A stretch of DNA of 32,886 bases. Source: a virus. Location: the IMG/VR virus record IMGVR_UViG_3300037245_000636, positions 1 to 32,886 of that record, one strand, 5' to 3'. The notes beneath the pieces are model-generated. The model worked only from the letters and a program-made list of their open reading frames with translations, was not told the DNA's origin and ran no database searches. Position numbers and translations under genes: made by a program. Within the stretch, counting starts at the first letter, position 1. Each line of letters opens with the position of its first letter. Below, in pieces: positions 4,136-11,827 of this stretch.

Positions 4136-4354
4136 TTACTTCTGCTCGTTCAAGTGCCTTAATCTACCCAACGGCATAAACGTGGCCTCCATAGCACTAA
4201 CTTCCTCACCCTTGGCGTTGTGGCCTGCAAGGAACAGGCCAGGAACTTCTGTAAATCCCTTTTCCTTTAGTCCGGCTATCATTTCCTGTTCAGTAGGGGC
4301 TGAGACATAGCCCGATGCGTGCGTCTCCATATTTTCGATCTCATAGATTATCAT
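4136..4354 (-). CDS. Unknown 72-aa protein
   Basis: ATG 4354 has AGGAG 9 nt upstream. The protein begins MIIYEIENMETHASGYVSAP, with a helix EQEMIAGLKEKGFTEVPGLF and a tail ending RLRHLNEQK. It looks like a small alpha/beta protein. No family is recognised. It is the last gene before the internal promoter at 4052-4079. Confidence 0.6.
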   Translation of the reverse strand: MIIYEIENMETHASGYVSAPTEQEMIAGLKEKGFTEVPGLFLAGHNAKGEEVSAMEATFMPLGRLRHLNEQK

Positions 4355-4369
4355 TGCTTCTATCTCCTA

Positions 4370-4590
4370 TTAAGGGTTAAGTCCTAGTATATCACATACA
4401 TCACGTACCAAGTCCCCACTAAGAATCCCATTGACTCTCAGTTGTTTAGACTCTGGGTTACACCTTTTGATATTAAACCCTATTCTGTTCTGCCTTGTTT
4501 CCAGGTCTAGCCTTGGGTATTAGGTCGGCACTAACAGGTCAGCGAATCCCACTTCTTTACTGGCCCTCTTGGTATGTTAGCTTTTGTCAC
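4370..4590 (-). pseudogene. Probable broken small gene (one frameshift, one stop)
   Basis: The 284-nt gap between the methyltransferase and the gene at 4354 has no intact frame over 40 codons, yet it reads like protein in two linked frames. From GTG 4590 one frame gives VTKANIPRGPVKKWDSLT and then hits TAG. The adjacent frame continues ADLLVPT, an in-frame TAA, YPRLDLETRQNRIGFN, and IKRCNPESKQLRVNGIL on to DILGLNP and TAA at 4370. Joining the two would give about 73 residues of ordinary composition. The 221-nt length, not a multiple of 3, fits a single frameshift. A sequencing error is possible but would have to explain two lesions. Confidence 0.45.
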
Positions 4591-4638
4591 TCTGGATCAA
4601 GATATAGGCGATTTTAAGTCTATTATTTAGTTTTTTGG

Positions 4639-5385
4639 CTATTTAAAGAGCCCGCAAGCGTCTTCTGCTTCTTTAATCCGCTTCTTTGCGATCTCGTAGT
4701 ATTTATCATCTTTTTCAATGCCGATGAATTGGCGGTTTTGGTTTACGCAGGCTACTCCTGTCGTCCCAGATCCCATAGTAAAGTCTAAAACGGTTTCGCC
4801 CTCGTTGGTGTATGTCTTGATTAGGTATTCCATTAGGGCTACTGGTTTTTGGGTGGGGTGGCAGGCTATGTGTGGCTTGTTGAACCTTAAAACCTGCGAC
4901 GGATATCCGGTCTTTGTTTGCTTGTATGGTTTCTGGGTGACATTGCTTGGCCTATGCTCACTATTGCCTTTGCCTCGGCATATTCGGTCACAATCAACTA
5001 ATCCCTGTGGATTATAAATCATGCGGTTTTTTGAATTCTTGGCGATAGTGGCGAAAGAGAAAACCACAACATCTTCAGTTTTCTTTAGTGGCATGTACGG
5101 AGCTTGTGCGAAGTTGGCAGCCTTGTTAGATTCCCACACCCAGCAATACTTAAACATCTTCATATTAGACGATATAAGGGTCGTAGTAAACGGCTGTGAG
5201 GCTGTCATAACAATAGCACCGTTAGGTTTAATCACACGCTTCAACTGCTCCCACATCGGCTCTAGGGGGACGATAGAGTCCCATTTACAGGCAGTCGTGC
5301 CGTAGGGAGGGTCTGTCATAACCATATCCACAGAGCCGTCAGGGATTTGTTTCATTTCTTGTAGGCAGTCACCTTTGTATAGCAT
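4639..5385 (-). CDS. DNA adenine-N6 (or cytosine-N4) methyltransferase, beta class
   Basis: This 248-aa enzyme transfers a methyl group from S-adenosylmethionine to DNA. Motif IV, TDPPYG (DPPY at 25-28), precedes HPTQKP (176-181) and the SAM-binding motif DFTMGSGTT (201-209). That order (IV, recognition region, I) defines the beta class of the N6_N4 methylase family (PF01555). DPPY favours adenine-N6. The start MLYKGDCLQEMKQIPDGSVD is typical of the family and supports ATG 5385, although the SD is weak (GGA 8 nt upstream). It is the first gene after a leftward promoter and a structured leader. No restriction endonuclease is recognisable nearby, so it looks like an orphan methylase, perhaps protecting phage DNA from host restriction. 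Confidence 0.93.
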   Translation of the reverse strand: MLYKGDCLQEMKQIPDGSVDMVMTDPPYGTTACKWDSIVPLEPMWEQLKRVIKPNGAIVMTASQPFTTTLISSNMKMFKYCWVWESNKAANFAQAPYMPLKKTEDVVVFSFATIAKNSKNRMIYNPQGLVDCDRICRGKGNSEHRPSNVTQKPYKQTKTGYPSQVLRFNKPHIACHPTQKPVALMEYLIKTYTNEGETVLDFTMGSGTTGVACVNQNRQFIGIEKDDKYYEIAKKRIKEAEDACGLFK

Positions 5386-5395
5386 TATCTAAGTC

Positions 5396-5482
5396 CATAA
5401 AAAAATCCGCTCACGTTTTGCCCGGTTAAAGCATCGTTTGCGGATTTTGTTGTTAAACTATTTTGTACTTTAACCGGGTACT
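5396..5482 (-). promoter_or_regulatory. Structured 5' leader (possible attenuator or pseudoknot) before the methyltransferase
   Basis: A leftward transcript starting about 5482 would open with CCCGGTTAAAG (5478-5468), which is fully complementary to CTTTAACCGGG at 5431-5421. Interleaved with it, AAAATCCGC (5448-5440) pairs with GCGGATTTT (5410-5402), extended by ACG/CGT inside, and ends in a run of seven T just before the gene. The order is B'-A'-B-A, so both stems together would form a pseudoknot. The A'/A stem with its T-run looks like an intrinsic terminator. A third option pairs GTTAAA of B' with TTTAAC about 12 nt later. This suggests conditional termination upstream of the operon. Confidence 0.55.
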
Positions 5483-5488
5483 ATTCTT

Positions 5489-5517
5489 ACTATACCCAAT
5501 AGAATCCAACTTGTCAA
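5489..5517 (-). promoter_or_regulatory. Leftward sigma70 promoter for the methyltransferase operon
   Basis: On the minus strand TTGACA (5517-5512) is followed after 17 nt by TATAGT (5494-5489), close to consensus. The predicted start is near 5482, placing the inverted repeat at the extreme 5' end of the RNA. It is divergent from the rightward promoter at 5556-5584. Confidence 0.75.
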
Positions 5518-5538
5518 ACAAAATCCTGATATTTCCTG

Positions 5539-5584
5539 AAAATAAAAGATTTATCTTGACAAACTGCCTTAAATAGAGTAATAT
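5539..5584 (+). promoter_or_regulatory. Rightward sigma70 promoter with repeated 26-bp box
   Basis: TTGACA (5556-5561), a 17-nt spacer and TAATAT (5579-5584) form a strong promoter for the gene at 5634. The 26 bp at 5539-5564, which include the -35 element, recur without mismatch at 11275-11300. Inside is the inverted repeat AAGAT-TT-ATCTT (5546-5557), abutting the -35, a likely operator. TCCTGA occurs twice just upstream at 10-bp spacing (5524, 5534). Confidence 0.75.
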
Positions 5585-5633
5585 GCGGTTGTCGCCTCCC
5601 GATCTGATGGCGTTTTAACAGTTTAAGGATAGC

Positions 5634-5969
5634 ATGAACGTAAGAATACCATACGCAAAGCTCAAAGATGCAGTCGTATCCTCTGGGATGACATATACCC
5701 AGATAAAGAACGAGGACTGGCAATTCACCCTTCCAGACATACTCTCTCCCGAAGAAATCATTAAGGTTAAACACCTAAAGAACCTTGTCATTAGATGGTT
5801 AAAGGCAGATTTCAAGGAAAGACAGTATATAGGCACATTAAAAGCAGCTCTATTCAGCAGGTTCGATCAAATGGAGGATTATATCACTCTACAGGGGTTA
5901 AGCAATCTATCCGGTGAAGAAAAGCTGGACAGGGCTTATAAAGAGTGGAAGGAGTCTAAGAATGGCTGA
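5634..5969 (+). CDS. Unknown 111-aa protein preceding the beta-helix gene
   Basis: This is the first gene after the rightward promoter. ATG 5634 has AAGGA 5 nt upstream. The protein is alpha-rich: YAKLKDAVVSSGMTYTQIKNEDWQF, then SPEEIIKVKHLKNLVIRWLKADFKERQ, and a C-terminal EEKLDRAYKEWKESKNG. No family is recognised. Its stop overlaps the start of the beta-helix gene by 8 nt, so the two are co-translated. It may be an accessory or assembly partner of that protein, by context only. Confidence 0.65.
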   Translation: MNVRIPYAKLKDAVVSSGMTYTQIKNEDWQFTLPDILSPEEIIKVKHLKNLVIRWLKADFKERQYIGTLKAALFSRFDQMEDYITLQGLSNLSGEEKLDRAYKEWKESKNG

Positions 5970-11117: not shown

Positions 11118-11160
11118 AATCAAACTCCAATAAAATAAACATCATTAACATTACCCTTAT

Positions 11161-11189
11161 ACTATCGGGTATAAACAACAATAAGTCAA
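11161..11189 (-). promoter_or_regulatory. Leftward promoter for the second block
   Basis: On the minus strand TTGACT (11189-11184) is followed after 17 nt by GATAGT (11166-11161), similar to TATAGT at the other divergent region. The leader to ATG 11117 would be about 37 nt, with none of the inverted repeats seen before the methyltransferase. Confidence 0.55.
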
Positions 11190-11192
11190 ATG

Positions 11193-11221
11193 AAAATACG
11201 ACAAAATACGAATAAATATGA
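11193..11221. repeat. Three tandem repeats phased at 10 bp
   Basis: AAAATACGA occurs at 11193-11201 and 11203-11211, and a two-mismatch copy TAAATATGA at 11213-11221. The copies lie on one face of the helix. GAATAAATAT also occurs twice (11210, 11261). The repeats sit just behind the leftward promoter and about 70 bp before the rightward one, so a regulator site or a bent region is likely. Confidence 0.5.
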
Positions 11222-11274
11222 ATATACCCTGTAAATCATCAATACAAGGCTTATATCAATGAATAAATATCACT

Positions 11275-11320
11275 AAAATAAAAGATTTATCTTGACAAAC
11301 ACCGAACAAAAGGGTAACAT
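11275..11320 (+). promoter_or_regulatory. Rightward promoter of the virion gene block, with repeated 26-bp box
   Basis: TTGACA (11292-11297), a 17-nt spacer and TAACAT (11315-11320) form the promoter. The 26 bp at 11275-11300 equal those at 5539-5564, including the inverted repeat AAGAT-TT-ATCTT (11282-11293). Sequences downstream of the box differ, so the identity is confined to the upstream and -35 segment. Confidence 0.75.
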
Positions 11321-11361
11321 AGACCCTAACAAGAACCGAACAAGTCTAATTTGGTGCGATA

Positions 11362-11508
11362 ATGAGCGATACAACCGTAAACATGATTAAAGCAATCCAT
11401 GAGGGTTTATATGACGGCATCAGGGGCAAAAAGCTCAAATTAAGCAAACAACAGCTATTACTACTCAACAGCAATAAAAGGGCAAAGGTTGTTAATTATG
11501 AGCGGTAA
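11362..11508 (+). CDS. Unknown 48-aa protein, first rightward gene
   Basis: ATG 11362 lies about 35 nt after the predicted transcription start. The SD is weak (TTGGTG). The protein MSDTTVNMIKAIHEGLYDGI continues with a basic, Leu-rich helix (KKLKLSKQQLLLLNSNKRAK). It overlaps the next gene by 11 nt. Small and unassigned; the coding call rests on position and overlap. Confidence 0.5.
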   Translation: MSDTTVNMIKAIHEGLYDGIRGKKLKLSKQQLLLLNSNKRAKVVNYER

Positions 11509-11662
11509 ACAAGTAAGACAAGCAATAGACCAGGCAACCATAGACCGCCAGGATCACAAACCACGTCAATACACCTGCAAAACAGCGAGAGAATGGCAAG
11601 ACATAAACAATAAGCTAACAGCAGCATCATTCGACATTCAGACAGGACTGGAGTGCAAGTGA
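11498..11662 (+). CDS. Unknown 54-aa protein
   Basis: ATG 11498 has AAAGG 9 nt upstream inside the previous gene. The protein reads MSGKQVRQAIDQATIDRQDH, KPRQYTCKTAREWQDINNKL, TAASFDIQTGLECK. It is polar and mostly helical. Its TGA overlaps a GTG start of the next gene. No family is recognised. Confidence 0.55.
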   Translation: MSGKQVRQAIDQATIDRQDHKPRQYTCKTAREWQDINNKLTAASFDIQTGLECK

Positions 11663-11823
11663 ATAACATAAACATAGCAAATCCAACGCCAGCTAGCGGT
11701 TATGAGTATGAAGGCAAAGTGCTTGAGGATATGACAAAAAAAGAGCTAATAGCAGCGTTAATAAGAATGCACGAACTAACAAGCTTACAATACACCGGCG
11801 CAAGGCCATTACAAACAAGGTGA
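11659..11823 (+). CDS. Unknown 54-aa protein (GTG start)
   Basis: GTG 11659 overlaps the preceding TGA (GTGA), with GGAG 5 nt upstream. The protein begins MNNINIANPTPASGYEYEGK and has a helix DMTKKELIAALIRMHELTSL. It stops 4 nt before the small terminase gene. This may be a small accessory of packaging by position only. Confidence 0.55.
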   Translation: MNNINIANPTPASGYEYEGKVLEDMTKKELIAALIRMHELTSLQYTGARPLQTR

Positions 11824-11827
11824 ATCA

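Follow-up and report, generated by a model that had tools for sequence, protein, structure and literature searches.

In phage P4, the CI RNA pairs with the leader segments seqA and seqC and stops transcription of the replication genes (PMC4825925). Attenuation in pT181 is triggered by an antisense RNA and depends on an anti-terminator that base-pairs with the terminator's 5′ arm (PMC4878617). We compared with these systems a leader found in a 32,886-bp viral contig (hereafter the window) and read on its leftward (−) strand. The layout of the contig is probably podovirus-like, as its families of terminase, head-tail adaptor and tail proteins suggest.

The gene that would be controlled encodes an N6/N4 DNA methyltransferase of 248 amino acids (4639-5385, − strand; Pfam PF01555, 6.9e-31; phrog_67, 2.7e-73), whose ATG at 5385 lies downstream of the leader. 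Past the end of the methyltransferase, a stretch of 284 nt (4355-4638) contains no gene-sized ORF before the next leftward gene begins, and a divergent intergenic region of about 700 nt (11124-11827) separates the leftward and rightward gene blocks. The nine-codon frame noted in the initial annotation (MDLDNAIQR, 5369-5398, − strand) does overlap the methyltransferase start as a reading frame, and no sign of its translation was found here.

Reading leftward, a promoter (5517-5489) is followed by arm A (5478-5468), arm B (5448-5440), arm A′ (5431-5421), arm B′ (5410-5402), seven U residues and the ATG. The initial annotation had reported two interleaved inverted repeats in the order A-B-A′-B′, and both proved to be exact, one of 11 bp (CCCGGTTAAAG/CTTTAACCGGG) and one of 9 bp (AAAATCCGC/GCGGATTTT). 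Its placement of the first arm, CCCGGUUAAAG, where the RNA is predicted to begin is backed by a putative sigma-70-like promoter, TTGACA-17-TATAGT (5489-5517, − strand), recognized by its match to 11 of 12 consensus positions; from the position of this promoter, the RNA is predicted to start at about 5482. Arms B and B′ are the 5′ and 3′ halves of a hairpin that resembles an intrinsic terminator and has an unusual 29-nt loop. The U7 tract (5405-5399), also noted earlier, ends 13 nt upstream of the ATG, and four of its seven residues are paired in the stem as well. Arm A′ (CUUUAACCGGG) occupies the center of the loop, where it is partly presented by UGC[..]GCA. The window has the promoter and, after it but still ahead of the first codon, the stable hairpin and U tract that an attenuator with an intrinsic terminator would show. 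Since the complement of A lies in the terminator loop and not in B or B′, the pairing with a terminator arm that typifies pT181 is not seen in the window.

Comparison with shuffled sequences indicated that this arrangement is rare. Shuffled windows would be expected to contain 0.025 interleaved pairs of this size each. In a stricter scan for a terminator-like stem of at least 8, a loop of 20-34 nt, a U tract and complementarity of the loop to upstream RNA, 400 shuffled windows gave 21 matches, none of which scored as high as the window or had an A of 11 nt. The chance of an 11-nt match between the loop and a shuffled upstream leader was about 0.00015. We considered the 11-bp repeat unlikely to be a DNA operator, as its half-sites are 36 bp apart and the RNA-type layout is found in other phages. 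There is also a 10-bp inverted repeat (GGATTTTGTT/AACAAAATCC) at 5442-5451 and 5517-5526, with one copy in arm B and the other, not part of the RNA, at the −35 box and upstream of it; it is possibly a DNA site or a chance occurrence.

Folded alone, the 84-nt leader RNA forms an early hairpin together with the B:B′ terminator (−22.6 kcal/mol, z −3.5). Stepwise folding of the window leader gave a definite order of structures. Hairpin I, GUAC[CCGGUUAAA]GUAC (5465-5481, − strand), which holds most of A in its loop, is the early fold at 20-29 nt; it is weak (−1.8 kcal/mol) and only 4 bp long, and other leaders have stronger counterparts. It gives way to a competing hairpin (5452-5474, − strand; −4.0 kcal/mol) that ties up part of A. 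This is the third pairing that the initial annotation had proposed, and it does exist, as GUUAAA/UUUAAC at nt 9-31 of the RNA, and no early fold is more stable before A′ emerges. The A:A′ helix (−17.5 kcal/mol) follows from about 60 nt and stands at about 62-74 nt, and B:B′ replaces it once B′ has been made. A:A′ precedes the terminator and uses its loop, and the overlap with the terminator hairpin is confined to its inner part. Under a generic pseudoknot penalty, which makes the value a rough one, both helices together came to −18.4 kcal/mol in the window and were not more stable than the terminator alone (−22.6). Two further leaders, those of L004 and of the sister phage L088, likewise form A:A′ before B′ emerges, and for L004 the rough pseudoknot estimate (−26.6 kcal/mol) was better than both nested forms.

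We looked for relatives of this leader. No homolog was found among DNA relatives in phages and plasmids or in exact-pattern scans of viral contigs, a scan of genome contigs for the 5634 gene gave no match, and the best methyltransferase relatives, mostly inside operons, have leaders without such an element. Two sister contigs share the rightward neighbor gene at 78-83% and carry no methyltransferase at this position. Sister phage L089 has a short plain leader without the element. In L088, the first leftward gene is preceded by a promoter and a terminator with a 28-nt loop, 9 nt of which match the upstream leader; this version is longer and weaker than that of the window, with a chance expectation of about 0.01-0.02. 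By eye, from translations, different methyltransferase-type genes lie elsewhere in L088 (6275-6991) and L089 (5924-7012), so methyltransferase content seems to turn over fast in this phage group. Tandem TGTTACGGC-like repeats in sister phage L090 (8840-9150) lie inside overlapping ORFs and were rejected as false matches within coding DNA, and a candidate in L091 (3264-3196) was an ordinary hairpin. Directly 5′ of a methyltransferase relative in L064 (about 2920-2970) is a strong 11-bp hairpin (AGAGGACCGGT/ACCGGTCCTCT), to part of which an upstream segment is complementary; it has no U tract.

The closest geometry elsewhere was that of L004, a contig that encodes a methyltransferase relative (65% identity), a DnaB-type helicase and a gp32-like protein. 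Its element (A 10 nt, L1 15, B 10, L2 8, L3 6, U8) is followed by the start of a DUF723 gene, and the upstream sequence TATAAATA looks like a T4-type late promoter. Among the leaders of DUF723 homing-endonuclease genes in general, the element was clear only in L004 and weak in L173.

The same architecture, with independent sequences, recurs in other phage leaders. A strict scan of 1.12 Mb of fetched phage loci gave nine matches, six of which (five distinct loci) lie within about 40 nt before an ORF; three shuffles of this set gave 2-4 matches each, none before an ORF. The five loci are the window, L004, L196, L074 and L088/L090, and the ORFs that follow are, respectively, the methyltransferase, DUF723, a T5orf172/MUG113 (GIY-YIG-like) gene, DUF6291 and a short ORF. 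A further element lies 11 nt upstream of an HNH/NUMOD4 endonuclease gene in Flavobacterium phage tooticki. We did not find this layout described in the open-access literature, and it is in that sense that we call it undescribed. Rfam gave no match at the gathering score in the window and no convincing match for it or for other leaders of this layout.

The layout is also present before the replication operon of tooticki. From there, further leaders were reached by DNA or gene homology rather than by complementarity, at first in morran, snusmum, mumin, mymlan, phi19:1, phi10:1 and phi18:3, and then in elemoA/C/D, 11b, phi19:3, phi13:2 and the Olleya phage Harreka. The family lies before replication operons, and every one of these leaders has a promoter, an A region, a terminator whose loop holds A′, and a U tract. 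In the typical layout, A sits in the loop of a 5′ hairpin and A′ at the center of a 25-35-nt terminator loop; in phi19:3 and phi13:2 the 5′ hairpin is weak or doubtful. The scan detected every member except 11b and Harreka, whose A/A′ pairs (CGGGCAGG/CCTGCCCG and GTGGTGG/CCACCAC, respectively) were identified by eye. When four genomes (187 kb) were scanned, three had one element per replication operon, with one extra before an HNH gene; no element was found in the 50 kb scanned of FPSV-F12, and shuffles gave 0-1 matches. Several Flavobacteriia leaders have a second motif between the terminator and the start codon, approximately AGTT..(A/C/T)GGTAATCTTAAAACC(T/G/A), which forms a small co-varying hairpin (L197 1255-1285; L203 about 505-540; L205 about 1275-1308; L217 1254-1295; L206 about 505-550), and a similar stretch occurs in the crAss-like phage cr55_1.

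Because a MAFFT alignment of all leaders (A3) was unreliable for pair counts, we counted changes only in an alignment of five close Flavobacteriia leaders (A4). The named structure was 98% paired, and 13 of its 30 pairs had changed on both sides, against a mean of 5.2 in 500 shuffles, none of which was as high. When partners were slid by 1-3 columns, pairing fell to 32-46% and all measures collapsed. All seven A:A′ pairs were 100% paired and four were compensatory, with the variants GTGAGACG/CGTCTCAC, GTGAGAAG/CTTCTCAC, GTGGAACG/CGTTCCAC and TGAGAGC/GCTCTCA. This covariation is strong for the family, yet the counts are not a probability, because the alignment is a small one of related rows. 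Across 15 leaders, cognate A:A′ duplexes averaged −12.0 kcal/mol, compared with −1.7 for non-cognate ones, a comparison that is circular for loci found by complementarity; only 1 of 210 non-cognate pairs reached −8 kcal/mol.

A covariance model of the Flavobacteriia family (R1) found Harreka, L074, phi18:3 and 11b and missed phi19:1, phi19:3 and L196. Its match to the window leader was weak (13.9 bits, E 0.013 for 301 bases) and was absent at E<=10 in a wider search. The window has every element of the family (5′ hairpin, loop-borne A′, U tract), with a hairpin I of only 4 bp; it has neither a Bacteroidetes-type TAnnTTTG promoter nor a replication operon, and has TTGACA/TATAGT and the methyltransferase instead. 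In view of the weak R1 score, we claim a shared architecture for the window and do not file it as a homolog, and since no homologous window leader was found, covariation is shown for the Flavobacteriia family only. The initial description as a conditional terminator or pseudoknot thus stands as to the kind of object, in that the architecture recurs and equivalent helices co-vary in that family.

These results lead us to regard it as somewhat probable that the leader is a transcription attenuator, in which termination is modulated by pairing of the RNA 5′ end with the terminator loop, a pairing that arises while the terminator is still incomplete. Transcription would start near 5482, and B:B′ with the U7 tract would act as an intrinsic terminator able to halt RNA polymerase once about 80 nt have been made and ahead of the methyltransferase. 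The terminator loop A′ could pair with the 5′ end A of the same RNA as soon as it emerges and before B′ is made, and A:A′ would then either hinder inside-out zipping of the terminator or hold a kissing or pseudoknotted form. We infer that termination occurs, that A:A′ favors readthrough over termination, and that the switch would be occupation of A, by the early hairpin or by a factor or RNA in trans, which would let the terminator form freely. We favor early A:A′ as a brake on terminator folding that leads to readthrough, this direction of the effect being presumed. Points against the attenuator are the weakness of hairpin I in the window, the lack of a homologous window leader, the plain leader of L089 and the weaker version in L088, the low R1 score, and the pseudoknot estimate that does not beat the terminator alone.

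The strong promoter, the compact fold and the terminator directly before the gene would also suit a stand-alone small RNA of 80 nt that acts in trans, with the methyltransferase expressed through leak-through only. IsrK of Gifsy-1, a terminated sRNA with a readthrough mRNA, is a precedent (PMC4825925). This reading is not exclusive of attenuation; by itself it leaves unexplained why complementarity between the 5′ loop and the terminator loop is kept amid sequence change, and we consider it unlikely. A released leader RNA might instead use A/A′ to bind leaders still being transcribed from the same phage and force their termination, as in P4, providing negative feedback or superinfection immunity. 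The phage specificity of A/A′, seen in the single non-cognate pair of 210 at −8 kcal/mol, and the position of the Flavobacteriia leaders before replication operons, as in P4, are in its favor. Pairing in cis within one RNA should nevertheless beat pairing in trans, no processing sites are known, and the window genes examined included neither an integrase nor a repressor, with a weak excisionase-type match in one short ORF; we judge P4-like control quite unlikely here.

Mobile genes often need shielding by a terminator, and one does lie directly 5′ of the methyltransferase, so A:A′ might be a chance match or a 5′-end stabilizer beside a plain insulator against upstream transcription. Such an insulator is improbable: the upstream gene is divergent, leaving little co-directional transcription to block, and the A:A′ complementarity (P about 0.00015) recurs. 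The pseudoknot-like topology in front of a SAM-using enzyme had prompted the suggestion of a riboswitch for SAM/SAH or another ligand, which did not hold up and is now very improbable. No Rfam family matched, the SAM/SAH families being absent from 4300-5700 even at a relaxed E-value; the methyltransferase relatives do not have the leader; and the layout also stands before genes for replication and for homing endonucleases, which do not use SAM, without a conserved sequence able to form one binding pocket. That the methyltransferase uses SAM appears incidental.

Beyond the attenuator itself, we tentatively raise the possibility of a widespread phage leader class in which a 5′ hairpin loop kisses the loop of an intrinsic terminator. 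Such leaders would diverge fast, co-vary per phage and control mobile-gene cargo as well as replication operons; they might also act in trans in a phage-specific way, as RNA-based immunity or copy control. If so, very different phages would control replication and selfish cargo (methyltransferases, homing endonucleases) through a terminator loop that reads the 5′ end of the RNA in which it lies, a design absent from Rfam that would open a way into RNA-level control in Bacteroidetes phages. Natural compensatory A/A′ variants already exist in Flavobacterium phages.

Among known systems, the H-type pseudoknot riboswitches (SAM-II, preQ1) share the A-B-A′-B′ topology near a gene start, whereas the leaders described here have no conserved sequence, no Rfam match and varied downstream genes. 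The IsrK/anrP leader of Gifsy-1 resembles ours in that a single promoter yields a terminated sRNA and a readthrough mRNA; it differs in that IsrK activates translation in trans and in that we found no paired terminator loop described for it. The P4 leader with its CI RNA (seqA-seqB-seqC) is likewise an untranslated phage leader, whose complementary segments govern premature termination ahead of the genes that follow, and in P4, as in the Flavobacteriia phages, these are replication genes. Rfam detected no sequence relation to the P4 leader. In P4 a processed RNA acts in trans on two target sites, whereas here there is one cis pair, with A in the loop of the 5′ hairpin and A′ in the loop of the terminator. 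Plasmid attenuators of the pT181/pIP501 type share a 5′ hairpin and a downstream intrinsic terminator, a decision on termination by 5′ folding, and kissing loops; here, in contrast to pT181, A takes the terminator loop only and no antisense RNA is known. The closest known logic is RNA-only attenuation, as exemplified by the P4 CI RNA and pT181.
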